From Paenibacillus sp. UNC499MF (GTDB lineage: Bacteria > Bacillota > Bacilli > Paenibacillales > NBRC-103111): a stretch of 64,000 bases of DNA. Numbering within the stretch: position 1 is the stretch's first letter; every line of letters starts with the position of its first letter. The stretch is from assembly GCF_900107975.1 (NCBI RefSeq), contig NZ_FNVF01000007.1, positions 160,085 through 224,084 on the forward strand, read 5' to 3'. Of this stretch, positions 24,391-45,480 are shown piece after piece. Below the pieces are notes generated by a model. The model worked only from the letters and a program-made list of their open reading frames with translations. It was not told the DNA's origin and did no database searches. A program made the translations under genes and the position numbers.

Positions 24391-24419
24391 TTGACAGCTT
24401 TTAACAGTGGGAGGATAAT
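24391..24419 (+). promoter_or_regulatory. promoter of the ACP/ATP-grasp/radical SAM cluster
   Basis: TTGACA (24391-24396), 17 bases, GATAAT (24414-24419). It gives an untranslated leader of about 110 bases before the acyl carrier protein gene. Confidence 0.65.
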
Positions 24420-24536: not shown

Positions 24537-24812
24537 ATGTACGATAAAATCGTAGATATTTTGTGCGCTATCAAAGAAGATCAACCGGAACTCCGTCATT
24601 CCCTGTCCCCCGAAACGGACCTTAATAACGATATAGGCCTCGATTCTCTGCAAATGATCCAGTTTATGCTGAAAGTCGAGGATCAGCTGAACGTGGCCAT
24701 CGACTACGACCAATTCGATTACGAGCATCTCCAGTCGATCGAAGCGTTTATCTCTTTTTTGAAAAGCTGCCAGTCTCAGGCGCAGCCGCTGTACGAAGAT
24801 GTCAAGCAGTGA
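24537..24812 (+). CDS. acyl carrier protein
   Basis: A 91-residue four-helix carrier protein. The phosphopantetheine serine is S37 in IGLDSLQMIQF, and the helix-II/III region VEDQLNVAIDYDQFDYEHLQS fits stand-alone carrier proteins rather than fatty acid AcpP. AAAGGAGTG precedes the ATG. The stop overlaps the ATP-grasp gene by 14 bases, so the two are translationally coupled. Stand-alone carrier proteins next to ATP-grasp ligases carry amino acids or small acyl units as thioesters (as BtrI in butirosin biosynthesis). The native cargo is unknown. Confidence 0.88.
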   Translation: MYDKIVDILCAIKEDQPELRHSLSPETDLNNDIGLDSLQMIQFMLKVEDQLNVAIDYDQFDYEHLQSIEAFISFLKSCQSQAQPLYEDVKQ

Positions 24813-26310
24813 GGCGGGCGTGATTCCGAAAACCGTTATGGGAACCTTCGATCCCGAAACGCGCTGGAGGGATCCGGAGCTGGCCCGGCTGCCGGCTATG
24901 CCCGATAAGGACCGCGAATCGATCGTCCTGTGTATGGACGACCTGTTGTTTCCGTTCTGCGGACCGGACGATATTTTATACAGCCGATGCAAAATCGACC
25001 CGGAGCTGCACGAGTACCTGGACGGGTTAGGCTTCTCCTTCCGGAACCGTTATCTCTACGATTTGAACGACGAGAGGGAGCCCGTGCCCGGACCGGAAGA
25101 CTTCAGGCGGTGCGTGTTCCGGATCGCAGCCGATAAGGCCGCGCCCGGCGCTCCGGATAACCGGGTGCTGCAGGCCGCCGGTTCCGGTTATTCCGCCGGA
25201 GCGTCGCAGCCGCCGGAATCCCCCGCAGCTTTAGCGGGAGCTTCCCGGCAAGCGCAGCCGGCCGAAGAAACCGCGGGCGCCGGTGCCGCCGGAATCTTGT
25301 CTCCGTACGCCATTACGGCGGAGACGGAAGAATACGTGCGGGCTGCCGGACCGCTGGGGTCCCTGCCGGACCTGGAGACGGTCGTGCGCGTCAATTCGAA
25401 GATGTACTCCAACCGTCTCCTGGCCGCAATCGGCGAGAAGTGCTACGGCACGGAAGCGGGCAGCGCAGCGGAAGTGGAGGCCGCCGGGAACGAGCTTCTG
25501 AAGCAGGGGCCCTACCTGCTGAAAGATCCCTTCGGCGTTTCGGGCAAAGGCAATCTGCTCATCGACAGCGAAGCGATGCAGCGAAGGATCGCGGAGCATC
25601 TGCACAAACAGGAGAGAAGCGGACTGCGCTCTCATTTCCTGCTGGAGCCCCTGCTGAATAAAGCGGTGGATTTCAGCTCTCACTGGCTCATCCGGGAGAG
25701 CGGTGAAACGGAATTCATCTCCGTTCAGCGGATGATTAACCACCAGCAAAATTACGGCGGGTCGATCAAAGCGGATGAACCGTTTATTTCCCTGCTGGAA
25801 ACCGCCGGCTATTTCGGTAGCATGCAGAAGGCTCTCCGGCTGCTGGCGGAGGACGGCTATCACGGCTTCGTCTGCTTTGATTCCATGATACTGGAAAACG
25901 GAGAAGTCGTATCCATCGTGGAAATCAACGCCCGCAAGTCGATGGGCCTCATTAACGCTTATCTCGATAAATGCTGGGAAAAGCAGGGCCGTACGGGCTG
26001 GCTTACGTTCCTTTCCCTCGGGCTTCCGGAAGGCTTCGCGTTCGGCAGTCTGCTGCACGCTCTGCGGGCATCCGGTCTGCTGCTGGCGGACTCCGGCGGG
26101 TACGGGATCGTTCCTCTCTCATCCAACACGGTGATGGTCAACGAGGTTCTGACCCGCCGCCGCATGGCCGAGGGAACGCTGAGCAAGCGGGGGATGCCGA
26201 AGGGGCGGCTGTACGTATCGGTAGTCGGCCGTGACGACGAACACCGCAGCGGGCTGATCGAAGGCCTGCGGCACGTTCTCGCCGACTTGTCCGTTAAAGT
26301 ATATAACTAA
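24799..26310 (+). CDS. ATP-grasp ligase
   Basis: A 503-residue protein. An N-terminal ~110-residue region (ESIVLCMDDLLFPFCGPDD) is followed by an Ala/Gly/Pro-rich linker (~115-165) and an ATP-grasp fold: LLKDPFGVSGKGNLLI (ATP-binding lysine and glycine loop), FLLEPLLNKAVDFS, and VVSIVEINARKSMGLIN, where E and N would bind magnesium. ATP-grasp enzymes activate a carboxylate as acyl phosphate. Coupled to a carrier protein gene, the natural reading is amino acid loading or extension on that carrier, as BtrJ does in butirosin biosynthesis (analogy by family and context). The start could also be GTG 24820. The low-complexity linker is unusual. Confidence 0.75.
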   Translation: MSSSEAGVIPKTVMGTFDPETRWRDPELARLPAMPDKDRESIVLCMDDLLFPFCGPDDILYSRCKIDPELHEYLDGLGFSFRNRYLYDLNDEREPVPGPEDFRRCVFRIAADKAAPGAPDNRVLQAAGSGYSAGASQPPESPAALAGASRQAQPAEETAGAGAAGILSPYAITAETEEYVRAAGPLGSLPDLETVVRVNSKMYSNRLLAAIGEKCYGTEAGSAAEVEAAGNELLKQGPYLLKDPFGVSGKGNLLIDSEAMQRRIAEHLHKQERSGLRSHFLLEPLLNKAVDFSSHWLIRESGETEFISVQRMINHQQNYGGSIKADEPFISLLETAGYFGSMQKALRLLAEDGYHGFVCFDSMILENGEVVSIVEINARKSMGLINAYLDKCWEKQGRTGWLTFLSLGLPEGFAFGSLLHALRASGLLLADSGGYGIVPLSSNTVMVNEVLTRRRMAEGTLSKRGMPKGRLYVSVVGRDDEHRSGLIEGLRHVLADLSVKVYN

Positions 26311-26332
26311 ATCTGCAACTCGGGAGCTGCGC

Positions 26333-27439
26333 ATGAACTCATCTTCGGTAACCTTGCTGGCGTCGGGGAATTCACTCGGCGCATACATTCCGGCTATGCA
26401 TCTGCACACGTATCTGCAGGGCAGGGGAGTCGGATCGGACGTTCAAGTTCTGGAGAACTTGTATCACGAAGAAGTCAGGAACAAGATCCGGGCTACCAAA
26501 AAAGCGTTTCATGCGGACTTCTCCGTAGCCCGTATGGGGCATAAGCTGGCCAGACCCGTCGACACTTCCCTGAACGAAGAAGCGGTCCGGAGGCTGCTGG
26601 AGGACTGGATGCGGGCCGGCATTACGCGGTTTGCGGTGTTCACCGGCTTCTGGCTGCCGATTCTGGAGCGTTACAAGGCGGCCGCCGGCCGGTCCCTGGA
26701 TATCCGGCTGATCCGGCTTGACGCTTGGGATACGCCGTCGTTCAAGGTGCACAAGCAGCTTTATCCCGGCTACGACAACGTCTGGTTCTATGAGCCCTCG
26801 GGCTTGTCCCCCAGCGGCTACATCGCTTCGGACGAAGCGGAGCCCCTGCCTTACGGGCAGCGCGCCGGACGCATCCTGATCCACGGAGGAGGCTGGGGGA
26901 TCGGCACTTACGCCGAGACGATCCGCGAACTCCGCGCGCTGGGACGCCGGCTTGATGTGATCGTCTACGACCCCTCCGAAGTGGAGGAGGACGACGGGAT
27001 TACGCGTTACTTCGGAACGGATGCCTCCTGGGACCCGTGGAGCCGGGACGCGCAGGGGCGGCACACGTTTCCGCCGATGGTCCGCTATGTCCGCGAGCAG
27101 GGGGTTCTCCGGGAGTATCCGCTCCGGGATTACTCCGTTTACACGGACTTGATGCGAGACTGCGCAGCAATCATCAGCAAGCCCGGGGGAGCTACCTTGA
27201 ACGACTCGCTTTCGTTCGGAATCCCTTTTGTCATGCTGGAGCCGTTCGGCGACCACGAGCTTCATAATTCGGCCTACTGGGAATCATGCGGTTTCGGTAT
27301 CCGGTTTGCGGAGTGGCAAGCCCGGAATTTTTCGGAGCATCTGCTGGAAGGGATTTGCACGCGATTGCTGGAACAGCGGTCGAAAATCAACCATTTTGGG
27401 AGGAATACTTATGCAGCCGAAAACAGCAGTTACGTTTGA
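26333..27439 (+). CDS. GT-B fold glycosyltransferase
   Basis: A 368-residue protein with two Rossmann-like halves. The N-terminus VTLLASGNSLGAYIPAMHL resembles the acceptor-side glycine loop of MurG/UGT-type enzymes; the C-terminal half has ILIHGGGWGIGTYAETI and the donor-binding region IISKPGGATLNDSLSFGIPFVML followed by EPFGDHELHNSAYWE. These are the hallmarks of nucleotide-sugar-dependent GT-B transferases. It sits between the ATP-grasp and radical SAM genes, overlapping the latter by 29 bases, so it probably glycosylates the cluster's product. Donor and acceptor are unknown. Confidence 0.8.
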   Translation: MNSSSVTLLASGNSLGAYIPAMHLHTYLQGRGVGSDVQVLENLYHEEVRNKIRATKKAFHADFSVARMGHKLARPVDTSLNEEAVRRLLEDWMRAGITRFAVFTGFWLPILERYKAAAGRSLDIRLIRLDAWDTPSFKVHKQLYPGYDNVWFYEPSGLSPSGYIASDEAEPLPYGQRAGRILIHGGGWGIGTYAETIRELRALGRRLDVIVYDPSEVEEDDGITRYFGTDASWDPWSRDAQGRHTFPPMVRYVREQGVLREYPLRDYSVYTDLMRDCAAIISKPGGATLNDSLSFGIPFVMLEPFGDHELHNSAYWESCGFGIRFAEWQARNFSEHLLEGICTRLLEQRSKINHFGRNTYAAENSSYV

Positions 27440-28586
27440 CCAACTTACGTTCCGTAATATGAAAAGAACCCTGGTTCCCTTGGCGGAAACGGGAAGGAAG
27501 CGCAGGGAAGATCCGGCTTATGCGGCGCCTGTGCCTTACGAGATCGGAATCAAGCTTAATAACGGCTGTAACCTGCGCTGCAAGCACTGCTTCGAATGGA
27601 ACCCGGAAGGCTTTCACCACGGCTTCGCCAAAGAAGTGAAGAACGACGAAATCGAAATTCCCGTCGTGGAGAAGCTGCTGGCCGAAACGAGAGAACGCAA
27701 ATCGCGCGTGTTCCTGTGGGGCGGCGAGCCGCTTTTCTACTCCAAGTTCGATGAACTGGCGGAACTGCTGGCCAAAGAAGACCGGTACACGACCATTTGT
27801 ACGAATGCGATTCTTATCGAGCAGAAACTGGATTCCATTCTGAAAATGTCGGAGAACCTGGTCATGCTGGTCAGCCTGGAAGGCTTCGAGAAGGAGAACG
27901 ACGCGATCCGGGGCAAAGGCACCTTCAAGAAAGTGATTCATGCCGTCAAGCTGCTGCTGGATCTGCAAAAGCAGGGTATCTACAAAGGCAAGGTGTCCGT
28001 AGCCTTGACCGTAAACGACCAGATGGTCGGGCAGCTTTACGATTTTATGGAATACTTCGAAGAGATGGGCGTCGATTCCGTTTACTTCTGCTTTCCTTGG
28101 TACATCCCCAACGACACGGCCGAGAAAATGGACACCTACTTCGATGCCCATTTCCCGCACCTGGCCGCCCGTTTCGAGGAAGGGCACAAAAACAGCTGGC
28201 ATTCGTTCACGTTCCACATCTCTCCCGACAATTTCGACACGCTGATCGAAGATCTGAACCGTGTCAATTCCCGGGTATGGAATGTGCGCGTCCGCTACCA
28301 GCCTGCTCTGGAGCCTGAGGAAGTGGAAGGCTTTATTCGGGGCAGCGAGAAGCCGGCCATGAAACGGACGAAATGCTTCTCAATCTCCAACCGGATGGAC
28401 GTTATGCCGGACGGCAAAGTGAATCCGTGCAAATTTTTCCCGGAATTCAGCGTCGGCAACCTGAATGAAGATAGCGTGGCGGATATTTTCCACGGCGAGG
28501 ATCTCCGCAAACAGCGTGAAGTACTGGCCTGCGGTCTGATGCCGATTTGTTCCAAATGCGTGCTGCTTTACAACAACGGAATTTAA
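27411..28586 (+). CDS. radical SAM/SPASM enzyme
   Basis: 391 residues from ATG 27411, which follows GGGAGGAA; the open frame further upstream is only overlap with the glycosyltransferase gene. The radical SAM cluster is C53-x3-C57-x2-C60 (CNLRCKHC), followed by the SAM-binding WGGEPL. The C-terminal SPASM domain supplies C322, C340, C374, C380 and C383 for an auxiliary iron-sulfur cluster. SPASM enzymes oxidise or crosslink peptides, or dehydrogenate sugars or cyclitols as BtrN does in butirosin biosynthesis. No precursor peptide gene was found next to it, which favours a small-molecule substrate. Confidence 0.9.
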   Translation: MQPKTAVTFDQLTFRNMKRTLVPLAETGRKRREDPAYAAPVPYEIGIKLNNGCNLRCKHCFEWNPEGFHHGFAKEVKNDEIEIPVVEKLLAETRERKSRVFLWGGEPLFYSKFDELAELLAKEDRYTTICTNAILIEQKLDSILKMSENLVMLVSLEGFEKENDAIRGKGTFKKVIHAVKLLLDLQKQGIYKGKVSVALTVNDQMVGQLYDFMEYFEEMGVDSVYFCFPWYIPNDTAEKMDTYFDAHFPHLAARFEEGHKNSWHSFTFHISPDNFDTLIEDLNRVNSRVWNVRVRYQPALEPEEVEGFIRGSEKPAMKRTKCFSISNRMDVMPDGKVNPCKFFPEFSVGNLNEDSVADIFHGEDLRKQREVLACGLMPICSKCVLLYNNGI

Positions 28587-28646
28587 ACGTTTAAACTTTA
28601 TGCCGCCCAATCAGGCAAAACAGGCAATCGTTCAGGAGGAGCAGGG

Positions 28647-29630
28647 ATGGACTTCATCCGTGTGCGGGAGCTGCACAAATCGTTCGTATATTACCGGAAA
28701 GAAGCCGGGCTTAAAAATTCGCTGAAAAATTTATTCGCCCGCAAGTCGCTGGTGAAGGAAGCGGTTAAATCCGTTTCCTTCGACATCGGTCCCGGCGAGT
28801 GCGTCGGATTTCTCGGCCCCAACGGGGCGGGAAAAACCACGACGCTCAAAATGCTGTCGGGCATTCTGTATCCCACGGGAGGGGAAGCCGATGTGCTCGG
28901 GTATGTGCCGTGGGAGCGGAAAAATGAGTTCAAACGGCTTTTTTCCATTGTGATGGGCCAGAAAAACCAGCTTTGGTGGGATCTTCCCGCAAGCGAATCG
29001 ATTTATCTGAACAAATGCATTTATGACGTGGACGACGATCTCTACCGCAAGAGCCTCGCCGAATTATCGGAAATGCTGGATGTTCAGGAGCTTCTGAATG
29101 TGCAGGTGCGCCGGTTATCTCTGGGTGAACGGATGAAAATGGAGCTGATCGCCGCTCTTATCCACCGGCCACGGCTGCTTTATCTCGACGAGCCGACGAT
29201 CGGCCTCGATTTTCCTTCCCAGAAGAAGGTCAGGGAGTTTTTGAAATATTACAATGAGCAGTTTGGCGCTACGATTCTGCTGACGAGCCACTACATGAAG
29301 GATGTGGAGGATCTGTGCAAGCGGACGATCATCATTAACGAAGGAAGTCTGCTGTATGACGGGGACCTCCATAAGATCAACGATCTTTTCGGCGAGCAGA
29401 AAATTATCCGGCTGCAGTTTTCCGAGCCCGTTGCGGAGCAGCGGTTGGCCAAATTCGGCAAAATCGTCAGCGGAGACGGCTACAATGCCGTTCTGGAGCT
29501 GCCGAAGCACCGCCTGAAGGAAGTATCGCGCTCCGTACTCGACGCGTTTCCGATCGTGGACTGGACGATAGAAGACGTGCCGATCGAGGAAAGCATTTCG
29601 ATGCTTTACCGCAAGGAATCCGCCGGATGA
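28647..29630 (+). CDS. ABC-2 exporter ATP-binding protein (copy A)
   Basis: 327 residues: an N-terminal extension with the AGLKNSLKNLF stretch, Walker A at 57-65 (GPNGAGKTT), a Q-loop region reading MGQKNQLWWDLP, signature RLSLGERMKMEL, Walker B LLYLDEPTIGLDF, switch TSHYMKDVE, then a ~90-residue C-terminal domain. The QLWWDLP stretch marks the ATPases that partner DUF990-like ABC-2 permeases. It overlaps the first permease by 4 bases. In the cluster it would power export of the product or provide self-protection. A close paralog is encoded at 44384. Confidence 0.92.
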   Translation: MDFIRVRELHKSFVYYRKEAGLKNSLKNLFARKSLVKEAVKSVSFDIGPGECVGFLGPNGAGKTTTLKMLSGILYPTGGEADVLGYVPWERKNEFKRLFSIVMGQKNQLWWDLPASESIYLNKCIYDVDDDLYRKSLAELSEMLDVQELLNVQVRRLSLGERMKMELIAALIHRPRLLYLDEPTIGLDFPSQKKVREFLKYYNEQFGATILLTSHYMKDVEDLCKRTIIINEGSLLYDGDLHKINDLFGEQKIIRLQFSEPVAEQRLAKFGKIVSGDGYNAVLELPKHRLKEVSRSVLDAFPIVDWTIEDVPIEESISMLYRKESAG

Positions 29631-30436
29631 ACAGACGCAAATTGTATACGGCGATTTTTTCGATGGGCGTTCAGCATTCGATGGAATACCGGTTTCACTT
29701 CTTTCTCGGTCTGCTCGGGGCCGCATTTCCGATCATGGTCCAGTATTTTATATGGACGGCGGTCTACCGGCATTCCGGACAGGCGGCGCTTTTCTCGTAT
29801 TCGTACGGCCAAATTATTTTGTATACGATTTTGGCGGGGCTGGTTTCCAAGCTGATCGCCACGCAGTTCGAGCACCAGATTGCCGACGATATCAAAAACG
29901 GCGGCCTTAACAAATATTTGATCAAACCGGTGAGTTACTTCGGTTACCGGCTGGTGTCCTTCTTCGGACAGAAGGCGATCTATTACGGAATTACGACGCT
30001 GCTGCTTATCGGGATTATCTGGATTTCGGCGGCGAGGAATGTGCTGGATGTCCAGGCCGTACGTCTGGTCTTGTTCGCCGTCACGCTGTGGGGGGCGCTC
30101 CTGCTCAATTTCCTGATTGCCTACTGCATTTGCGCCAGCGCGTTTTATTTGCACGAAATCTCATATTTTTTCGTCATTACAAGTCTGCTCGTCAATATTT
30201 TGAGCGGAGGCATGTTTCCTTTGGAAATTTTCGGGGACACGGTTGTGAAGGCGCTTCAGTACACGCCGTTTCCGTATACGATTTATTTTCCGGTCAACGT
30301 CCTCAGCGGCAAGACGGAAGCGGCGGCCATGTACCAGGGGCTGCTGATACAATGCGGATGGATTCTGCTGTTCTTCTGGCTTTCCCGCCTGACGTGGCGC
30401 GTATCCATGAAGAAATATTCGGCGGTTGGGGGGTAG
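29627..30436 (+). CDS. ABC-2 family permease (copy A, first subunit)
   Basis: A 269-residue membrane protein with six predicted helices. The N-terminus RKLYTAIFSMGVQHSMEYRFHFFLGLLG and the segment SGGMFPLEIFGDTVVKALQYTPFPYTIYFPVNVLSG are typical of DUF990-like ABC-2 permeases. It is translationally coupled to the ATPase (ATGA overlap) and followed 12 bases later by the second permease, so the pore is probably a heterodimer. The exported compound is presumably the cluster's product (inference from position). Confidence 0.85.
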   Translation: MNRRKLYTAIFSMGVQHSMEYRFHFFLGLLGAAFPIMVQYFIWTAVYRHSGQAALFSYSYGQIILYTILAGLVSKLIATQFEHQIADDIKNGGLNKYLIKPVSYFGYRLVSFFGQKAIYYGITTLLLIGIIWISAARNVLDVQAVRLVLFAVTLWGALLLNFLIAYCICASAFYLHEISYFFVITSLLVNILSGGMFPLEIFGDTVVKALQYTPFPYTIYFPVNVLSGKTEAAAMYQGLLIQCGWILLFFWLSRLTWRVSMKKYSAVGG

Positions 30437-30448
30437 CGGACGTTCCAT

Positions 30449-31252
30449 ATGGTTAAAATCGCGAGAAAATACGCGCTCCTGTACGGTATGTTCATCAAAA
30501 ACTGCCTCATCGCCCAGATGGAATTCCGGGGCAACTTTGTGATGAGCCTATTGGTCGAATCCGTCTATCTGCTGGCCAAGCTGTTGTATGTGCTCGTCGT
30601 GTTCCGTACCGATCTTCACGTAGACGGGATACCGCCCGAGGGGCTGCTTCTTTTTATCGGAATGCATACCGTGGCGACCGGTATTTATGTCGGTCTGTTT
30701 TTTACAAATTTCATGAAAATTCCGGAATATATCAAGGACGGTTCGCTTGATCTCATGCTGACGAAGCCGGTCTCCCTCCAGTTCATGGCTTCCCTGCGTT
30801 ATGTGGATCTGGCGCTTCCGATTCCCGATATTCTGGTCGGGTTCGTCATGGTCGGCATCGGCTGGCATGCGATGGACATTCCGCTGTCGTTCATGCAGCT
30901 CGCGGGATTTGCCCTGCTGCTTGTCGTCTCGGTCGTCATCACGTACTGCATAATGATTATTCCGGCGCTGTTGTCGTTCTGGTTCGTCCAGACGGGCTCG
31001 GTGTCGGAGATCGCCCATTCGGTCTGGGATGCCAACAATTTTCCGATGGCCATCTACCCGGCCTGGGTTCGCCGGATCGGCACGTTCGTTATTCCCCTGT
31101 TCCTGATTACCAATTTCGGGCCGATGTTCCTGCTGGGACAGCTCAGCTGGCTTTATGCGGGACTGGCGCTGGCCGGATCGCTGCTGCTTTTCGCTGCCGT
31201 CCGGCTGCTTTGGAAGCAGGCCGTAAGGGGCTACAGCAGCGCCAGCAGTTAG
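30449..31252 (+). CDS. ABC-2 family permease (copy A, second subunit)
   Basis: A 267-residue membrane protein, six helices, with the LIAQMEFRGNFVMSLLVES opening and a DGSLDLMLTKPVSLQFM cytoplasmic stretch shared with its paralog at 42429 (DMDALLIRPLPVLFV). It completes the exporter. A 324-base gap follows before the dehydrogenase gene, without an obvious terminator. The start is an ATG at 30449 with no strong ribosome binding site; translation is probably coupled to the preceding permease. Confidence 0.85.
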   Translation: MVKIARKYALLYGMFIKNCLIAQMEFRGNFVMSLLVESVYLLAKLLYVLVVFRTDLHVDGIPPEGLLLFIGMHTVATGIYVGLFFTNFMKIPEYIKDGSLDLMLTKPVSLQFMASLRYVDLALPIPDILVGFVMVGIGWHAMDIPLSFMQLAGFALLLVVSVVITYCIMIIPALLSFWFVQTGSVSEIAHSVWDANNFPMAIYPAWVRRIGTFVIPLFLITNFGPMFLLGQLSWLYAGLALAGSLLLFAAVRLLWKQAVRGYSSASS

Positions 31253-31576
31253 AGCGGCTCTAGGGCCGATAAACGCCGGGACAGGCAGTTGGCTTAAGAA
31301 ATCCCGCTGAAACCGATGCCCCGGGGCTTCCGCTCTCTACTTGAGCTGATGTCCGGCGGGGAGCTTCCGCTCTATATTTGAGCTGACGCTCGGCGTCGGG
31401 TGCCCGGTGATCCGCTTCGTGTCGGAGCGGCTGCCCTTGCAGCTTCGCGGCCGGTTTGTGCTTGCAGGATCAGTGATCACCACGAGCATGCCCGGTCTAC
31501 AGGAAGGTCTCATCGGCAGTGTCTTCAGGTTTTTTCCGGATTTTCATCCTACACTTAGAAAAGGAAGTGCCAAAGC
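31253..31576 (+). other. gap in the biosynthetic cluster
   Basis: No gene is evident. It holds the tandem repeat at 31326-31395. A ribosome binding site (AAAAGGAAG) ends the gap. No clear promoter or terminator was identified. Confidence 0.4.
31326..31395 (+). repeat. two tandem copies of a 33-base repeat
   Basis: Copies at 31326-31358 and 31363-31395, period 37, differ at 5 of 33 positions. Each contains GCTTCCGCTCT and TTGAGCTGA. Meaning unknown. Confidence 0.6.
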
Positions 31577-32602
31577 ATGCCGGATGTTGCGACAAGCGAG
31601 GGAATCATTTCGTTAAACTGCGTATTTCAGGAACCGGACCGGATTGAGCTGCTGGAGGAGAAGGTGCCCGAGCCGGGACCGGGACAAATTTTATGTGCGG
31701 CCAGAAAGTCGCTGATCAGTACCGGAACGGAATTGGCCTGTCTGAGAGGGCGCTTCGACGAGGGAACGGTCTGGTCCTCTTGGGTCCGCTATCCGTTCTA
31801 TCCGGGCTATTCCATGGCGGCGGAAGTGCTGCGGATTGGCAGCGGGGTTGAAGGAATCCGGGCCGGAGACAGGATTATCTGCCCTGCCGGACACCGGCAG
31901 TACTTCGTGGCGGATTCCCGGGAAGCGGCGCTTATTCCCGATACGGTTAGCGACGAAGAGGCGGTTTTTACGCAGATCGCTAAGGTCGCCCTGCTGGGTG
32001 TCCTGCGCGCGGAACCCGCATTCGGAGAAAGAGTCGGCGTCGTGGGGCTCGGCCTCATCGGCCAGCTTGTGGTCCAGTATCTGAATTCGAGCGGTGCGCG
32101 CCAGATTATCGCGATTGCGCCGGAGAACTCCCGTCTGGATCAAGCCCGCCGGAACGGGGCGACGGATCTGCTGAATCTTCCGGTGGCCGAAGCGTTCGGA
32201 TCCGTGGAAGAGCTCACCGGAGGCAGAATGCTGGACACGGTGTACGACGTCACGGGCTCCTACGCCGTACTGCCGCATTGCACGCAGCTGACCCGGGACC
32301 TCGGCAAAGTGATCCTGCTGGGCGATTCGACGGAGCCCTCGAAGCAGACGATCGGGCCGAAGGTCGTCTTTAATTCGGTCAGCATACTGGGGATTCACGG
32401 GCGGATGATGGAAGGCTTTAAAGGCTGGACGGAAGCGGACATGAACGAATTCATCTTCGAATACATCCGTTGCGGAAAACTGGACGTCGCAAGCCTCATC
32501 AGCGAAAAAGTAAGCCCGCTCGAAGCGGTATCGGTGTATACCCGGCTCGCCGGTCGGAAATCCGATGCCATGGGCGTGGTGTTCGATTGGACGCAAATGT
32601 AA
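31577..32602 (+). CDS. MDR-family zinc-binding dehydrogenase
   Basis: A 341-residue medium-chain dehydrogenase/reductase. GroES-like catalytic domain ~15-140 (SLISTGTELACLRG, PGYSMAAEVLRIG) and Rossmann domain with VGVVGLGLIGQLVVQ. The canonical catalytic Cys and the GHE motif are not visible, as in the sugar- or cyclitol-type MDR subgroup whose members read TGTE at this point. It would oxidise or reduce an alcohol using NAD(P). It is followed 19 bases later by the GH3 gene and may act on the sugar part of the cluster's product or on an unrelated sugar pathway. Confidence 0.82.
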   Translation: MPDVATSEGIISLNCVFQEPDRIELLEEKVPEPGPGQILCAARKSLISTGTELACLRGRFDEGTVWSSWVRYPFYPGYSMAAEVLRIGSGVEGIRAGDRIICPAGHRQYFVADSREAALIPDTVSDEEAVFTQIAKVALLGVLRAEPAFGERVGVVGLGLIGQLVVQYLNSSGARQIIAIAPENSRLDQARRNGATDLLNLPVAEAFGSVEELTGGRMLDTVYDVTGSYAVLPHCTQLTRDLGKVILLGDSTEPSKQTIGPKVVFNSVSILGIHGRMMEGFKGWTEADMNEFIFEYIRCGKLDVASLISEKVSPLEAVSVYTRLAGRKSDAMGVVFDWTQM

Positions 32603-32621
32603 ACGGCAGAGGGGGATACGA

Positions 32622-34280
32622 ATGAAAGCGTGTAACGAACTTACGCTGAAGGAAAAAATCGGCCAGCTTCTGATGGTAGGTTTCGAAGGACTTGTGCCGG
32701 ACGCGAATATCCGGGATCTTCTGCAGAACCATTTCGCCGGCGGGATTGTGTTTTTTTCCCGCAATCTGGACAATCCGGAACAAGCTTTCGCTTTAGCGGA
32801 AGAACTGCAGCGGATGGCTGTGTCGACGACGGGCATACCGCTGTGGCTCGGGACGGACCAGGAGGGAGGCATGGTGGTCCGGGTAAGGCAGGGGATCGCG
32901 CAGCTTCCCGCGGCAATGGCGCTGGGAGCGGCACGCAATCCCGGGCTGCTTTACGAGGCCGCCAAGGGAACGGCCGAAGAGCTGAAGGCGCTGGGCATTA
33001 ATATGAATTTCGCGCCGGTGGTGGACATCAACATCAACCCGCGAAATCCGATTATTGATGTCCGCTCGTTCGGAGACGGCGCCGAGCTTGTCTCCGAGCT
33101 GGGGATCGCCGCCATGACGGGTTTTCAGGACGGAGGAATCGCCTCCGTCATCAAGCATTTTCCCGGGCACGGAGATACGGAGACGGATTCCCACGCGGAG
33201 CTGCCGGTCGTGAGGCATTCCCTCGAACGTCTGCGGTCGGTGGAGCTCGTGCCGTTCCGGCGGGCAGCCCTGACCGGGGCCGAAGCCGTCATGACGGCGC
33301 ACGTCGGAATCCCGCTGCTCAGCGGCGGCGAGCCCGTTCCCGCGACGCTCTCCAGGGAAGTCCTGACGGGACTGCTGCGGGAGGAGCTGGGCTTCGACGG
33401 GCTCATCGTGACCGACTGTATGGAGATGGACGCGGTAACGCAGGGAATCGGCGTGGGCGAGGCGGTCGTCCGGGCCGTGCTGGCCGGGGCGGATCTCCTG
33501 CTCGTGAGCCACACGTACGACAGCCAATTGGAGGCGGTAGCCGCCCTGGAGCGTGCGGTGGCGGACGGACGCCTGCCGGAGGAGCGGATCGACGCTTCCG
33601 TGGAGCGGATTCTTCGCCTGAAGGAGCGCCGCATCGGAGAGCTGCGGGAGCGCAGCTGGGAAGAAGCGAAGCATCTGCTGGAAAATCCGCAAACACTGCG
33701 GACGATAGAGAGGCTCCGTGAAGAAAGCATCACGGCCGTCAACCGTGAACCGGATTTCTGCAGGCTGTCTCCAGGCGCCGACACGCTGGTGCTCTGGCCG
33801 CACATCACGGCTGCCTGCAAATCCGAAGACGAGCCTGTACACGATGCTACCCTGGCCGCCTTCCTGCGCCCTCTTATCGGGGCGAAGCTCACGGAGCGCG
33901 TGTACGGGACCAGCCCGGGGCCGGATGAGATTGCGGCCTTGGCATCCGAAGCGCAGCGATATGGACAGATCGTCGCGGGCATTTTTCATACGGCTTCCAA
34001 TCCGGGACAAACCGCACTGGTCCGCAAGCTGCTGGAGGGCGGCGCCAAAGTCATCCCGGTCTCCCTGCGCAATCCCGTCGATCTTGCGGCATTTCCGGAG
34101 GCCAAAGGCTTCCTGGCCTGCTACGAGCATCATCCGTATACCCTGCAGGCTTTGGCCCGTGTTCTGACGGGCACGGCGGAGCCTGTCGGAACTCTGCCGG
34201 TCACCATTCCGGCTTACATCTCAGAAAGGGGAGAATCAGATGAACGCCGTTCAGCTTCCGTTATCGAATCCGCCACTTAA
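32622..34280 (+). CDS. beta-N-acetylhexosaminidase, GH3 (NagZ-like)
   Basis: 552 residues from ATG 32622 behind GAGGGGG; the frame is open upstream but has no other good start. The GH3 barrel has the NagZ motif K178-HFPGHGDTETDSH-191, with D189/H191 as the catalytic acid/base dyad, and D265 in IVTDCMEMD as the nucleophile. A ~200-residue C-terminal domain follows, as in Bacillus NagZ, but there is no signal peptide, so it should be cytoplasmic. NagZ removes GlcNAc from muropeptides or N-acetylglucosaminides. Its 3' end overlaps the next gene by 41 bases. Here it could trim a GlcNAc-containing intermediate. Confidence 0.88.
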   Translation: MKACNELTLKEKIGQLLMVGFEGLVPDANIRDLLQNHFAGGIVFFSRNLDNPEQAFALAEELQRMAVSTTGIPLWLGTDQEGGMVVRVRQGIAQLPAAMALGAARNPGLLYEAAKGTAEELKALGINMNFAPVVDININPRNPIIDVRSFGDGAELVSELGIAAMTGFQDGGIASVIKHFPGHGDTETDSHAELPVVRHSLERLRSVELVPFRRAALTGAEAVMTAHVGIPLLSGGEPVPATLSREVLTGLLREELGFDGLIVTDCMEMDAVTQGIGVGEAVVRAVLAGADLLLVSHTYDSQLEAVAALERAVADGRLPEERIDASVERILRLKERRIGELRERSWEEAKHLLENPQTLRTIERLREESITAVNREPDFCRLSPGADTLVLWPHITAACKSEDEPVHDATLAAFLRPLIGAKLTERVYGTSPGPDEIAALASEAQRYGQIVAGIFHTASNPGQTALVRKLLEGGAKVIPVSLRNPVDLAAFPEAKGFLACYEHHPYTLQALARVLTGTAEPVGTLPVTIPAYISERGESDERRSASVIESAT

Positions 34281-35283
34281 AGGTTTTTTGCGGTGGGGCT
34301 ATACACTTTCCATTACGAGCGGACACGAAGAAACGATTCCCTGGTTTTACAGCAATTTTATCCAGTTGTCCTGCACGAAGAAATTTTTGGAGGACGGCAG
34401 GCAGTGCTACGTCGACTTTTTCCGGGGCGAGCCCAATGAACTGAATTTCAACAATCCGTTCTTGCTCACATGCACCGTCAATTATACGTTTATGGAAAAT
34501 CTGGCGCTGGATGATTGGCCGAAATTTTTTGCGGATCAGATCCGTAACGAGTATTACTGTATCGTTTTTTTGGACGAATCCAGACTGTCGCCGGCGGCTT
34601 GCTATCAGCAGGAACCGTTTCCCCATCACCTTTTTCTGTACGGATTCAATTGGGAAGAACGGGTCTTTTATGCCTCCATGTTCGACCATACGGGGGTATA
34701 TCGCAATCTGGAAATTACTTTCGAAGAGTTTCTCGATGCCGTAAATTCCATGAAAAAGCTGCTGAAGGAAGGACAAACGTCTGATCACCATACGTATTTT
34801 TACAAATACGAGGCGGAATTCCACTATCCTTTTGACAAAATAGCCGCGATCGACCAATTGCGCGACTATCTGAACGGGGAGACCCGCTTAAACCGGATCA
34901 ATTACAACCCCGACGAGAATGAAGCTTTCGGGATCAGGGTATACGACTATTTGCAGATGTACTATGACGCCGTGGAGCAAAACGATCCCCGGCTGGGAAT
35001 GCGCAACGATGTGAGGCACCTTCATCTCCTGTGGGAGCATAAAAAAATGATGAGCGACCGGATCGAATATCTGGTGAATGAAGGGATCATTCCGTATGAC
35101 GAGGAGCTTGTGGAAGGCTATAAAGATCTGGCTAAGAGAGCAATGAAGCTGAGGGACCAGTATATCCGCCATGAAATCCGCGAGGATAAGGAAGTGTTTG
35201 AACGGTTAAGGCTCCGGTTCAACCAATTCCGGGATGAAGAGCCTGCACTTCTGCAAAAGCTGATTGCACTGCTCGGAGGTTGA
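34240..35283 (+). CDS. BtrH_N-like protein, putative acyltransferase
   Basis: A 347-residue soluble protein starting inside the end of the GH3 gene, behind AAAGGGGAG. Residues ~110-180 (HHLFLYGFNWEERVFYASMFDHTGVYRNLEITFEEFLDAV) match the pattern of BtrH N-terminal-like proteins of NRPS and butirosin clusters (FxGYDWxxxxFYVxD, then xxISFEEF). BtrH transfers an acyl chain from a carrier protein to an amino sugar. The C-terminal half is helical and charged with no known domain. The family's usual N-terminal Cys could be one of two here (SCTKKF or QCYVDF); that assignment is unsure. With the carrier protein gene upstream, an acyl-carrier-dependent transferase is the leading idea. Confidence 0.6.
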   Translation: MNAVQLPLSNPPLKGFLRWGYTLSITSGHEETIPWFYSNFIQLSCTKKFLEDGRQCYVDFFRGEPNELNFNNPFLLTCTVNYTFMENLALDDWPKFFADQIRNEYYCIVFLDESRLSPAACYQQEPFPHHLFLYGFNWEERVFYASMFDHTGVYRNLEITFEEFLDAVNSMKKLLKEGQTSDHHTYFYKYEAEFHYPFDKIAAIDQLRDYLNGETRLNRINYNPDENEAFGIRVYDYLQMYYDAVEQNDPRLGMRNDVRHLHLLWEHKKMMSDRIEYLVNEGIIPYDEELVEGYKDLAKRAMKLRDQYIRHEIREDKEVFERLRLRFNQFRDEEPALLQKLIALLGG

Positions 35284-36461: not shown

Positions 36462-37400
36462 TCAGTATTCGGTCGTTATGACTGGGGTGCCGATTGTGAT
36501 ACGCTGCAGCCCGCTCTCGGTTAACGTATGAACCGCGGCCTGCAGGTTAACGCGTTTTCCGCCGCTGATTACGGAAGCGTGAAGCTTGGGCGCGCTCATC
36601 GTTATGCTGACGGTCTCTCCGTCGGCATAACGCTCAAGCGGAGCGGCGCCGAGCCGCTTCGCGAGCAGCGCCTGGAGCCCATCGGCCTGAGCTGCGGCCC
36701 CTGCCGAAGGCCGGGCGGCGGCGCCCTGCAGGACGACGTTGCAGTCCGCCTGCACGCCCGCCGCTTGCAGGGCGGCCTCCAGGCTTTCACGGCGCGCTTC
36801 CAGCGCCGGGAGGCCGTCGGCTGTGCGCGCCTCCAGCCGGGCGATGACGAACGCGCTGCCGTCGTCAAGGCGGGCGAGCTGCAGCGACAGCCCGCCGCCG
36901 CCCGCCGCAGAGCCGCCGCCCGCCGCAGAGCCGCCGCCCGCCGCAGAGCCGCCGCCCGCCGCAGAGCCGCCGCCCGCCGCATACACGGCGTGGCCGGAAG
37001 CGCGGCTGACGGCTCCTGCCGGCAGCGACAGCCGCGCCGCCAGCGCGTCGCCCGCTGCGGCGAGTGCGTCGTCGCCTGCCGCGGCAGGCAGCGGAGCCGC
37101 GTAGCGCAGCGTGACGGCTGCGTCCGGCGCGAGCACGCCGTCCGCGGCAGCCAGCAGCGCGGCGAGGTCGGAGCGGCCTGCGTCCGCGGGCGTCGGCTTT
37201 GCGGCGGCGGACCAGCCGGCGAGCAGCAGCGCGGCCAGCAGCGCGATGCTCCAGAGCAGCCCGCGCGCCGGTCTGCGGAGCCGCGGCTGCGCTGCGGCGG
37301 GATGCCCCGCGGCGCCGGTGCCGTTCAGCGTCAGCTCTTTCCGTGCCTGCGTCAGGGGACACTTTTGCAGGGTGCTCTTCGTCATCGCGCTTTTCATCAT
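36462..37400 (-). CDS. YwmB-like protein with GGGSAA repeats
   Basis: I start at ATG 37400 behind GGAGCGATAGAG; an upstream in-frame start at 37433 is less likely. The product has one N-terminal membrane helix ([17 protein letters not shown], about 48-64 from this start) and an Ala-rich extracytoplasmic domain. The C-terminus [12 protein letters not shown] and the preceding [13 protein letters not shown], with [16 protein letters not shown] before it, match the YwmB family, seen near murA/spoIID in bacilli. Residues ~140-168 are a GGGSAA tandem repeat inserted in the domain. Function of the family is unknown. Confidence 0.7.
36892..36981 (-). repeat. 18-bp tandem repeat within the YwmB-like gene
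   Basis: Four full units of CCCGCCGCAGAGCCGCCG at 36901-36972 plus partial units on both sides. Translated on the minus strand it encodes GGGSAA repeated. The repeat creates long spurious open frames on the other strand. Confidence 0.9.
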
Positions 37401-37530
37401 CTCTATCGCTCCGTTTCCGTTCGAATCTAGCAATCTAGTAACAGCTTTGCCGGAGCGGGCAGCTTTTATACGTTCTCCTTAGTGAATGCGGCAATTCTCC
37501 TTATCACTCCCGTGCAATCCCTCTTATGAA

Positions 37531-41450: not shown

Positions 41451-41655
41451 GGTGACAGCTTCCTTTCTTACCTTCAAAATCTTTCGGCCGCGGAATCCGG
41501 CTTCCTGTTTATCATCCTACATTTCTTTACTGTCGGAAAGGGTAAATTGAATCTAATTCGGGGTTGATTTTTATTGGCGGCATTTGGTAAGATGAAATCC
41601 CTCTACACGCATTTCACGCTGAAACGATCGTCTACTGATGAACCGGAGGTGTTGG

Positions 41656-42432
41656 ATGCTTTTTTCTGTCTTGGCGCGTAAAGCTTACGCGCGGAATTTG
41701 CAGTACCGGGGCGCGCACATGATTCATAACGTGTCCAGTTTTATGTTCGGTTTTGTGTACGTGTCCTTGTGGGCAGGTATAGGCGAAAGTCATTCGCTGG
41801 GCGAATACGGAGTCCAAGGAATGACCGCTTATATCGCCTTTAACCAGGCCTCTTTATGGCTGGTGCTCTTTATCACGAACGGTCTCGGCATGGAGCAGTC
41901 CGTACGTACCGGACAAATTGCCCTGGACCTGATGCGCCCCGTCCCCCTGTTTCTGCATAAGATGTACCGGGAGTGGGGGCAGATCGCTTATCAGTTCGTG
42001 TACAAATTTCTTCCGATCTACATCCTCTATTTTTTCCTGTTCTCGATCCCGGTTCCCGGGAAGCTCTCCGTTTACGGCTGGACCGCTTTATCGCTTCTGC
42101 TCGCCGCTTATATTTCCATCTGCATGAATTACCTGATCGGCGCCGCCGCCATGTGGACGACCGAATCCCGCTGGCTTTACTGGGTGAACTATGCGTTCTC
42201 CATGCTGCTTTCCGGCTTTTTTATCCCGCTGGAGTGGCTTCCCGCCTGGCTTCGCCAGCTTAGCTGGCTGACTCCGTATCCCTATCTGCTGTACGTTCCG
42301 GTGTCGCTGTTCACGGAAAGAACGACGCCTGCCGCTCTGCCGGCAGCGCTGTTTTGGTGCGTTCTTTTTACGGGGCTATGCTTGCTGGCGACAGGCGGAA
42401 TGCGCAGGAAGCTGGAGGTGCAGGGAGGATGA
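41656..42432 (+). CDS. DUF990-like ABC-2 permease (copy B, first subunit)
   Basis: 258 residues from ATG 41656 behind GGAGGTG; a start at 41638 is in frame but lies upstream of the ribosome binding site. Six membrane helices; YRGAHMIHNVSSFMFGFVYVSLWAGI and LLSGFFIPLEWLPAWLRQLSWLTPYPYLL are characteristic. It overlaps the next permease by 4 bases. Together with the ATPase at 44384 it forms a second exporter of the same type as the one at 28647-31252. Substrate unknown. Confidence 0.85.
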   Translation: MLFSVLARKAYARNLQYRGAHMIHNVSSFMFGFVYVSLWAGIGESHSLGEYGVQGMTAYIAFNQASLWLVLFITNGLGMEQSVRTGQIALDLMRPVPLFLHKMYREWGQIAYQFVYKFLPIYILYFFLFSIPVPGKLSVYGWTALSLLLAAYISICMNYLIGAAAMWTTESRWLYWVNYAFSMLLSGFFIPLEWLPAWLRQLSWLTPYPYLLYVPVSLFTERTTPAALPAALFWCVLFTGLCLLATGGMRRKLEVQGG

Positions 42433-43223
42433 GAAGCGGACTGCGGATGTATGTGCTGCTGATCCGGGCATCTTTGAGGAGCCGGATGCAGTACAAATTC
42501 AATTTTATTTTTTCTTCACTGATGGCGGCTCTCGTCAATGCGGCCGAATTTCTGATGGTGGCGCTCGTGCTGGACCGCTTCGGAAGCGTAAAGGGCTGGT
42601 CGCTGTATGAGGTGGCTTATTTGTACGCGGTTATCATGCTGTCCAAAGCGATCTACCGGTCTCTGGCTTCGGATGTCCATCATCTGGAAAAGTATCTGGT
42701 GAGCGGGGATATGGACGCTCTTCTGATCCGGCCTCTGCCGGTGCTTTTCGTACTGATGACTCAAAATTTCCGCCTGCTCGTCGGAGAATTCGGGCAGGGC
42801 CTGCTAATTCTCGCGTATGCGATGAACCATCTGATGCGGGAAGGCCAGATCGGATGGCAGGCCGTTCCGCTGACCGTCGTCGCCATCGGCTCCGGAGCCC
42901 TTATCCTGTTCGCCATAGGTCTGGCCACGGCTTCGGCCGGTTTCTGGCTGACCCGGATCGAGGAGCTGCAGAACGTAACGGAGGACGCGGCAAGATCCGC
43001 CGCCCAGTATCCGCTGGACGTGTATCCCGGCTGGCTCCGCTACATTCTGCTGACGTTCCTCCCGGTCGGACTGGCCAACTATGTGCCGGCTTCCGTCATC
43101 ATCCGGCATGAGTACGGCACATGGGCGCTGGCAGCGGTAGCGGTCATGTCCTTCGTCTTCGTCCTGCTGGCCGGAAGGCTGTGGAAGCTGGGCATTTCAC
43201 GTTACCAGAGTACGGGAACGTAG
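42429..43223 (+). CDS. DUF990-like ABC-2 permease (copy B, second subunit)
   Basis: 264 residues from ATG 42429, coupled by ATGA to the preceding permease and behind GGGAGG. The cytoplasmic stretch HHLEKYLVSGDMDALLIRPLPVLF corresponds to the DGSLDLMLTKPVSLQF region of the copy-A second subunit. Six helices. The ATPase partner lies downstream after an intervening carboxypeptidase gene, an unusual order. Confidence 0.85.
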   Translation: MRSGLRMYVLLIRASLRSRMQYKFNFIFSSLMAALVNAAEFLMVALVLDRFGSVKGWSLYEVAYLYAVIMLSKAIYRSLASDVHHLEKYLVSGDMDALLIRPLPVLFVLMTQNFRLLVGEFGQGLLILAYAMNHLMREGQIGWQAVPLTVVAIGSGALILFAIGLATASAGFWLTRIEELQNVTEDAARSAAQYPLDVYPGWLRYILLTFLPVGLANYVPASVIIRHEYGTWALAAVAVMSFVFVLLAGRLWKLGISRYQSTGT

Positions 43224-43315
43224 GAGAAGCCGCGATGCCGCTTGCCGCGGATCGTGCGCTCCGCCGCTCAGACAGACTTGCCGTGCGGCTGCGGCTGGGT
43301 GTCGGGGGAGCCTCC

Positions 43316-43362
43316 CGCCCTTCCACAACGCATTCGTGTGAACGAAGGAGGGCGAGTCTTTT
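43316..43362 (+). other. inverted repeat between permease and carboxypeptidase
   Basis: CGCCCTTCC can pair with GGAGGGCG around a loop containing a TTCGT/ACGAA mini-hairpin; GTCTTTTC follows. It may be a weak terminator splitting the operon. Confidence 0.4.
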
Positions 43363-43431
43363 CGAGGGCTTGGTTCGTCTTCTCTACATAGAGAGACAAA
43401 TAGACAAGAACCGAAGGAGCGGAGTGACGAC

Positions 43432-44352
43432 GTGAAACGGATCAAACGAGGAGCCCTGCTGATGGCTGTCCTTGCGGCGGCCGGTGTCTGGTTGTGGAAC
43501 GAAAGAAAGAATGCGGTACCCGATATTGAGGCCAGGTCCGCCTTGCTGATGGAAGCGGAGAGCGGACGCGTGATTTACGAGCGGAACGCGGAGGAGAGCC
43601 TGCCTCCGGCTTCCATGTCCAAAATGATGACGGAACTTATCGTTTACGAGGAAGTGAAGGCGGGCCGTGCTTCCTGGGAGGACCGGGTGACAACGAGCCG
43701 GTATGCCAGCGAGGTGACGGGAGCCCAGATCGGGCTTGAAGCCGGAGAGAAGCTTGCCCTTAAAGATATGCTGGCCGCGATGGCCATCGTGTCCGCCAAC
43801 GATGCCGCCGTGGCGGTGGCCGAGCACCTCGGCGGAACCGAGGATGATTTTGTCTTGAAAATGAACGCGAAGGCGAAAGAAATCGGACTGTCCGGCAAAA
43901 CGGTATTCGCCAACGCGAGCGGGCTGACACGAGCCGACCTGGGACCTTACGCTCCCAGGAAAAATTCGGATGAGACGCTCATGACGGCTAAAGACGCGGC
44001 CAAGCTCGCGGCTTATCTCATCCGGGAGCATCCCGGCATCCTGGAGCTGACCGCCAAAGCGGACTATGCCATGCCGGGCAGGTTCGGGACGCTGAAAACG
44101 ACCAACCGTATGCTTCCGAATACGAAAGATTCCTTTTCCTATACGGGGACCGACGGGCTGAAGACCGGGTTTACCGACCAGGCCGGTTACTGCTTTACGG
44201 GAACGGCGGTCCGGGACGGCAAAAGGCTCGTCTCTGTCGTAATGGGAACGGAGACGGCGGAGAAGCGGTTCGAAGAAACACGCAAGCTGTTCAATTACGG
44301 TTACGGCACAAGCCGGACTCTGACGGAATGGATCAAAGACATGATGCGCTGA
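43432..44352 (+). CDS. D-alanyl-D-alanine carboxypeptidase (peptidase S11, DacF-like)
   Basis: 306 residues, GTG start behind AAGGAG. An N-terminal membrane/signal segment (GALLMAVLAAAGVWLWNE) precedes the S11 catalytic core: S61-MSK64 (SxxK), S121-A-N123 (SxN) and K244-T-G. It trims the terminal D-alanine from peptidoglycan stem peptides outside the membrane. It lacks the long C-terminal beta domain of PBP5, as in DacF types. The gene is inserted between the permeases and ATPase of the copy-B exporter, hinting that this exporter may be linked with the envelope. Confidence 0.9.
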   Translation: MKRIKRGALLMAVLAAAGVWLWNERKNAVPDIEARSALLMEAESGRVIYERNAEESLPPASMSKMMTELIVYEEVKAGRASWEDRVTTSRYASEVTGAQIGLEAGEKLALKDMLAAMAIVSANDAAVAVAEHLGGTEDDFVLKMNAKAKEIGLSGKTVFANASGLTRADLGPYAPRKNSDETLMTAKDAAKLAAYLIREHPGILELTAKADYAMPGRFGTLKTTNRMLPNTKDSFSYTGTDGLKTGFTDQAGYCFTGTAVRDGKRLVSVVMGTETAEKRFEETRKLFNYGYGTSRTLTEWIKDMMR

Positions 44353-44383
44353 GTGAGAGCGCGAACAGAAGGAGGGGAGATGT

Positions 44384-45361: not shown

Positions 45362-45480
45362 TACAAAACAAGGTACAATAGACGAAGGAATCTAGAGAAA
45401 TTCCGGGCGTTCGGGACAGGTTGGAGGGCGCAGCGAGACAAGGGCGCCCGGAGTTCCATCAACGCTCAGGAGGAATTACA

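Follow-up and report, generated by a model that had tools for sequence, protein, structure and literature searches.

The 64,000-nucleotide stretch of Paenibacillus sp. UNC499MF (contig NZ_FNVF01000007.1; hereafter the window) carries at positions 24537–35283 ten closely packed genes, all on the plus strand and with positions that we verified, in which a carrier protein, an ATP-grasp ligase relative, a GT-B glycosyltransferase (GT) and a radical S-adenosylmethionine (SAM) enzyme make up a conserved core unit. We see about an even chance that this operon encodes a carrier-templated pathway whose product is an exported, sugar-containing small molecule. In kind the system resembles thiotemplated small-molecule pathways, and the cassette is apparently undescribed: no cassette of these parts was found in titles and abstract openings of the open-access literature, which is weak evidence of absence, since subscription papers and bioRxiv fall outside that body, and an older amidoligase survey by Iyer and colleagues may reportedly mention similar neighbourhoods. 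An initial annotation had read the genes as a strategy related to butirosin biosynthesis that makes an aminoacylated, glycosylated and exported compound; its observation of the gene cluster is confirmed, and its interpretation is partly supported.

The core unit was delineated by scanning named genomes with an alignment of the radical SAM enzyme and retaining the best 80 loci. Of these, 57 encode an in-family radical SAM protein (178 bits or more), and up to 9 kb away from its gene the carrier is present in 55, the ATP-grasp in 51 and the GT in 56, with the three together in 50. By contrast, not one of these partners occurs in any of the 22 loci whose radical SAM relatives are more distant. 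The latter group strictly numbers 23, as it includes L158, a truncated family member that falls just under 178 bits and has all three partners; we quote the out-group without it and count L158 as in-family (n = 58) in the wider neighbour counts below. The expectation that the neighbours would be conserved together in other genomes was therefore borne out. The gene order is carrier, ATP-grasp, GT, radical SAM, alone or with a second radical SAM gene, in 38 of 63 loci. Over a set of 64 loci that all have the four core genes (the window, 50 named loci and 13 loci from the window's family) the four core proteins co-diverge, with Mantel r 0.67–0.86 and 0/999 permutations as high. The grouping of the core genes is not due to chance. 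All ten window genes are also under purifying selection (dN/dS 0.02 to 0.18 against the two nearest relatives).

The 50 full-core loci come from Bacillota (36), Actinomycetota (11), Cyanobacteriota (1), Chlorobiota (1) and Bacteroidota (1), the last three from records titled as metagenome-assembled genomes. Within the window's own family, homologues of the ATP-grasp protein occur in 37 of 104 genomes and those of the protein encoded by the last gene in 36 (E up to 0.001, paralogues included), and 18 of the 40 stretches mapped around such hits have ATP-grasp, GT and radical SAM genes together. Each of the five genomes in the window's genus has the complete ten-gene set, as do two other loci of the family, L063 and L069; P. 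selenitireducens (L102) and P. dendrobii (L152), both culturable, are among the relatives that hold it. As a separate observation, the radical SAM proteins of L130 and L132, from Kibdelosporangium aridum and Rhodococcus rhodnii, are joined by very short branches in spite of belonging to different families, which suggests recent transfer.

Pfam supports the assignments of the carrier, the radical SAM enzyme, the ABC-2 exporter, the medium-chain dehydrogenase/reductase (MDR) and the GH3 protein, the carrier and radical SAM enzyme by generic domains only. The ATP-grasp protein, the GT and the last protein reach no curated cutoff in Pfam or NCBIfam; the first two have sub-threshold matches only, and the last protein has no match at all in either collection. 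The acyl carrier protein was annotated correctly: Ser37 of the GLDSL motif is present in 64/64 aligned carriers (like all invariance figures over this set, the count excludes loci missing any core gene), and it is surrounded by G34 (60/64), L35 (51/64), D36 (58/64) and L38 (63/64).

The annotated ATP-grasp ligase found no backing in Pfam, where neither PreATP-grasp (PF18604) nor PF18105 matches above cutoff and the best match is DUF3182 (16.2 bits, cutoff 26), which according to PMC4431377 is a family of ATP-grasp proteins related to enzymes like BtrJ. Profile comparison recovers the assignment: hhalign aligns the protein with a family of eight ligases (A9) at 100% (E 2e-61, 429 columns), which indicates full-length homology. 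The one member of that family that was scanned, the ligase of L119, matches PreAtp-grasp, PGM1_C and ATP-grasp in Pfam, and the family profile matches PGM1 (3wvq) with E 5e-12. The profile of the window protein itself matches PDB 8ynd (E 1.1e-9), and a core homologue from L131 reaches 16.4 bits against PGM1_C, for which the cutoff is 22.5. The comparisons support the view that the window protein is a divergent relative of PreATP-grasp/PGM1-type ligases. N199, K201, K242, G246, G249, D361, E375, N377 and R379 are present in 64/64 homologues and E283 in 52/64. We propose this protein as the carrier-loading enzyme. Five of the six in-family loci that lack an ATP-grasp gene possess an AMP-ligase gene within 7 kb, versus 4 of the 52 loci that have ATP-grasp; such replacement is consistent with a loading role but is no proof of it.

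The radical SAM protein (with a start at the ATG at 27411 picked by us) matches the Pfam models Radical_SAM (E 1.9e-20) and SPASM (E 4.5e-12). A full SPASM domain has seven auxiliary cysteines; here the core cysteines C53, C57 and C60 and four auxiliary ones, C322, C340, C380 and C383, are present in 64/64 proteins, while C374, also listed as a SPASM cysteine by the initial annotation, occurs in only 23/64. The profile of the enzyme matches the C-terminal part of BtrN (4m7t, E 8.5e-7), whereas its radical SAM core domain is matched better by SkfB and anaerobic sulfatase-maturating enzymes than by BtrN. SPASM proteins hold two auxiliary clusters, and BtrN has a single one with four cysteine ligands and carries out a two-electron oxidation of its substrate (PMC9012708). 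To judge from the conserved cysteines, the auxiliary site of the window enzyme is of the twitch-like, BtrN type and not a full SPASM domain. In the GT, a C-terminal profile match to 9wde (E 6.6e-7) is accompanied by an HGGGW signature and by K283, G285, E309 and N312, all found in 64/64 sequences. By analogy with the mitomycin pathway discussed below, we propose that it glycosylates a carrier-bound acid.

The protein encoded by the last gene, called BtrH_N-like in the initial annotation, does not match the Pfam model of that family (PF14399), and its relationship to BtrH was recovered by hhalign (96–98%, E 2e-9 to 5e-13), which supports its assignment as a distant BtrH relative. An alignment of proteins of its type (P0010-type; sequences of up to 300 aa or up to 60 bits excluded) has Trp35 in 51/52 and His129 in 49/52 sequences, with G231 and K268 conserved as well. 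We do not claim that Trp35 occupies the former cysteine position, as the N-terminal part of the global profile alignment is unreliable. PMC10318531 describes BtrH as an acyl-carrier:aminoglycoside acyltransferase and places its domain near the papain-like families C39 and C70. For further predicted clusters, proteins of the BtrH family have been put forward as transacylases that act on carriers (PMC2922099). The BtrH family profile also has a weak match to AziU3/Azi29 in the PDB (E 0.03). P0010-type or BtrH-type proteins are common but not universal near the core (26/58 loci within 10 kb of the radical SAM gene). AziU3 is said to act on a carrier-bound substrate.

Paralogues of this protein occur elsewhere in the same genome. 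One, in L085 (G000:C11), narrowly misses BtrH_N (E 2e-6, 28.4 bits, cutoff 29.7); at L085:9156-14697 it adjoins genes for a nonribosomal peptide synthetase with two condensation stretches, AMP-binding and PP-binding domains, a beta-lactamase-like protein and a thioesterase. Another, at L086:9772-11817 (G000:C24), adjoins a protein that matches BtrH_N below the cutoff (E 2e-5), and similar tandem pairs are present in L077, L078 and L096.

From these parts we infer a pathway in five steps. First, the ATP-grasp enzyme would activate an amino or hydroxy acid and load it onto the carrier, the gene of which is paired with its own. Second, the GT would move a sugar from a sugar nucleotide onto the carrier-bound acid, in analogy to MitB, which glycosylates an acid bound to the carrier MmcB in a mitomycin pathway that also involves the radical SAM enzyme MitD (PMC8621148). 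Third, the radical SAM enzyme with its BtrN-like auxiliary cluster would abstract a hydrogen atom from the glycosylated intermediate, and the outcome would be a two-electron oxidation, most simply the conversion of a sugar alcohol into a ketone, after which a dehydrogenase could reduce the product or set its stereochemistry. Fourth, the BtrH-related protein may handle the carrier-bound product as a transferase, a releasing enzyme or a rearranging enzyme, its homology being the supported part. Fifth, the ABC-2 pump, judging by its family, would export the product, and in strains that possess the GH3 protein the latter might trim a sugar. The dehydrogenase is of the MDR type in the window, where many relatives have a Gfo/Idh/MocA dehydrogenase (within 7 kb in 29/58 in-family loci, six of them used in model building, vs 0/22 in the out-group). 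Because Gfo/Idh/MocA genes and, in some relatives, UDP-glucose dehydrogenase, epimerase and nucleotidyltransferase genes lie near the core, the involvement of sugar chemistry is supported. A more specific proposal, which we put forward tentatively and hold to be somewhat short of an even bet, is that a sugar attached to a carrier-bound acid is remodelled on the carrier by the BtrN-like radical SAM enzyme and that a cysteine-less BtrH-related enzyme releases or cyclises the product, as an apparently undescribed and widespread class of pathway.

Several points weigh against such a carrier-templated sugar pathway. MitD has been proposed to act in C–C bond formation and not in sugar oxidation (PMC8621148). 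The target of the radical SAM enzyme could be the acid rather than the sugar, and the acceptor of the GT could be a free compound or a lipid, its nearest solved relative being a diacylglycerol glucosyltransferase. The Mantel correlation is uncorrected for shared descent. As to the AMP-ligase exchange, L148 and L149 are short contigs, so that ATP-grasp could lie outside them; L125 and L161 are alike and may reflect one event; L122 contributed to model building; and the L125-like loci L126, L128 and L153 hold an AMP-ligase in addition to ATP-grasp. Catalysis in the papain-like superfamily depends on a cysteine together with a histidine, and no conserved cysteine was found in the P0010-type alignment (at most 25/52 in the best column), so acyl transfer by thiol chemistry should not be assumed for the BtrH-related protein; in the set of BtrH-type proteins a His-Cys motif is present at the aligned column in 11/15, the other four being unaligned there. 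Eight loci of another genus (L066, L067, L068 and L090–L094) have neither a radical SAM gene nor ABC-2 permeases of the window's type in the stretch and retain the ATP-grasp, GT, ABC ATPase and BtrH-related genes, with a carrier detected in six; the radical SAM step would be dispensable in some systems, then, and the ninth locus of that genus is L069 with its ten genes. Finally, the core is missing from L070, in which the BtrH-related, MDR and GH3 genes have a pyruvate formate-lyase-like gene as their neighbour.

A closer parallel to butirosin, the idea of the initial annotation, is rather unlikely in our estimate. Here the carrier and the ATP-grasp enzyme would form an aminoacyl thioester, from which the BtrH-related protein would pass the aminoacyl group to an amino sugar, an acceptor made separately by the GT and the radical SAM enzyme. 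Apart from the BtrN-like region and the BtrH homology of the last protein, this reading can draw on four related clusters (L074, L079, L119 and L123) where a PLP-dependent decarboxylase similar to BtrK, a second ATP-grasp enzyme and a BtrH-family protein are encoded in a row beside the core (Pfam check limited to the L123 decarboxylase, the L119 ligase and the BtrH proteins of L119 and L123), and on L077, in which a luciferase-type monooxygenase gene adjoins genes for a BtrH-type protein, itself without a Pfam match, and a P0010-type protein. Yet the trio brings its own ATP-grasp enzyme, which suggests that the one in the core probably does something else, and the window protein lacks the cysteine. 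An aminoacyl side chain, as predicted by the initial annotation, is not established, because Pfam identified no homologue of BtrK or BtrO among the ten genes; the broader kinship with butirosin is retained in the BtrN match, the distant BtrH relative and the trio of the sister clusters.

Alternatively, the operon could decorate the cell envelope, with a carrier-activated acid being attached to a glycolipid or wall polymer, the ABC-2 transporter flipping it outwards and the GH3 protein serving as a recycling hexosaminidase. The resemblance of the C-terminal half of the GT to diacylglycerol glucosyltransferases, the weak similarity of the carrier to DltC, the NagZ-like character of the GH3 protein and the presence of the GT in 5/5 genomes of the genus would all fit, but a sample of 398 genomes of the phylum yielded the GT in only four, the window's own included (E up to 1e-20, up to five candidates scored per genome), the accessory tailoring genes vary among relatives, and none of the ten genes was identified by Pfam as a wall-polymer polymerase or ligase. 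Moreover, APH-type kinases are encoded in 10/58 loci, all actinobacterial and most with MFS pumps (kinase Pfam-checked in L130 only), and on balance we consider envelope decoration quite improbable. That the small protein is the precursor of a ribosomally synthesized, radical SAM-modified peptide is a very remote prospect and is rejected on the carrier and GT context: the radical SAM enzyme does have a C-terminal iron-sulfur domain and maturases of such peptides appear among its listed NCBIfam matches, but none of the 25 listed of 80 reaches its cutoff, the small protein is a carrier, its serine being invariant, no peptidase domain was found by Pfam among the ten genes, and the GT gene accompanies the radical SAM gene in 56/57 loci. 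An anti-phage system is rejected on the same context; PADLOC, run on five of the ten proteins, gave viperin models as its only matches, and these were to the radical SAM enzyme.

The carrier-templated sugar pathway would be encoded by the genes listed in the table, which overlap by 14 bp (carrier/ATP-grasp), 29 bp (GT/radical SAM), 4 bp (ATPase/permease 1) and 41 bp (GH3/last gene), in agreement with the annotated arrangement. The single promoter assigned to the cluster corresponds to a near-consensus site. Shuffled sequence is expected to yield 6.5 promoter-like sites over both strands and the scan gave five, so this site is noteworthy for its quality alone and the number of sites is not. A single transcript for all ten genes is plausible, as the 324-bp gap between the ABC-2 genes and the MDR gene has no plus-strand promoter-like site in the same scan. 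No Rfam family reached its gathering score between window positions 19000 and 40000, where a leader hinting at the substrate was sought.

Table. Promoter and genes of the cluster, in window coordinates
Feature	Position	Strand	Evidence
Promoter TTGACA-N17-GATAAT	24391..24419	+	11/12 consensus positions
Acyl/peptidyl carrier protein, 91 aa, Ser37	24537..24812	+	PF00550 E 1.9e-9
ATP-grasp ligase relative, divergent, 503 aa	24799..26310	+	hhalign; PDB 8ynd; weak DUF3182
GT-B-like glycosyltransferase, 368 aa	26333..27439	+	9wde profile match; weak EryCIII-like_C
Radical SAM enzyme, twitch-like auxiliary site, 391 aa	27411..28586	+	Pfam; BtrN profile match
ABC exporter ATPase	28647..29630	+	ABC_tran E 8e-23
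ABC-2 permease 1, ABC2_membrane_6	29627..30436	+	E 3e-22
ABC-2 permease 2, ABC2_membrane_6	30449..31252	+	E 2e-37
MDR-type dehydrogenase, optional tailoring enzyme	31577..32602	+	ADH_zinc_N E 1e-16
GH3 beta-N-acetylhexosaminidase-like protein, optional	32622..34280	+	PF00933 E 1e-90
BtrH-related protein (P0010), 347 aa, no conserved cysteine	34240..35283	+	hhalign to BtrH family

The core, the exporter, the MDR-GH3 pair and the BtrH-related gene are separable modules, since relatives keep them in different combinations. The three-gene ABC-2 exporter was identified correctly; permeases 1 and 2 each occur in 28/57 loci, and an ABC ATPase lies within 9 kb in 32/57, some of these being probably unrelated ABC proteins. 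The MDR and GH3 genes, which the initial annotation counted as part of the cluster, are indeed present but are optional and lie outside the core, each being found within 9 kb of it in 3/57 named loci; in L101 and L104–L106 the BtrH-related gene directly follows the permeases, without MDR and GH3. The GH3 protein scores 200.3 bits against PRK05337 of NCBIfam, below the cutoff of 207, and no signal peptide is evident by eye. Among seven relatives searched with Rfam, a T-box was found in L108:3899-4114 and a yjdF (azaaromatic) riboswitch in L112:18624-18732, each on the minus strand at a distance of several kb from the core. Elsewhere in the window, positions 41638–45361 hold an apparent second exporter of the ABC2_membrane_6 type, with two permease-like genes (the first Pfam-checked) and an ATPase gene, followed at 45421–46221 by a glyoxalase-domain gene, and a minus-strand gene at 36462–37433 encodes a DUF1779 protein that has a tandem amino-acid repeat of the GGGSAA type.

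If the proposed mechanism is true, it would add a route to sugar-containing antibiotics or signals through glycosylation on a carrier protein. The GT and radical SAM genes provide a simple query for finding such clusters, which the core marks in five phyla. The APH-type kinase beside the ten actinobacterial loci hints that some of the products are antibiotics against which the producer needs immunity.

Among known systems, the likeness to BtrH/AziU3-type proteins consists of distant BtrH homology and the weak match of the BtrH family, the missing conserved cysteine setting the window protein apart. The window ATP-grasp protein is homologous over its full length to a family whose profile matches PGM1 of the pheganomycin pathway; it differs from PGM1 and PreATP-grasp ligases in that its own family stays below the Pfam cutoffs and has a carrier gene nearby in most loci. 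With BtrN, the radical SAM enzyme shares the CxxxCxxC core, four auxiliary cysteines and the C-terminal profile match, but it is ~120 residues longer. Butirosin biosynthesis (BtrI carrier, BtrJ ATP-grasp, BtrK, BtrO, BtrH, BtrN and BtrM) is the nearest precedent for the combination of carrier, ATP-grasp and BtrH: the window has the carrier and ATP-grasp pair (the latter by profile methods only), the BtrN-like region and the BtrH-related protein, and the core is joined in sister clusters by BtrK-like, second ATP-grasp and BtrH genes or by a luciferase-type monooxygenase. In addition to BtrK and BtrO, however, the window's ten genes include no 2-deoxy-scyllo-inosose synthase (Pfam, search limited to these ten), as the initial annotation noted, its ATP-grasp protein belongs to a separate divergent family, and the core has its own GT and, in the window, an ABC-2 pump. 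In early mitomycin biosynthesis (MitE, MmcB, MitB and MitD) a CoA ligase and not an ATP-grasp enzyme activates the acid, and MitB and MitD are likened to the window proteins by description and not by sequence; with an acid-activating enzyme, a carrier, a GT and a radical SAM enzyme in one pathway, it is the nearest biochemical precedent found for glycosylation on a carrier combined with a radical SAM enzyme.

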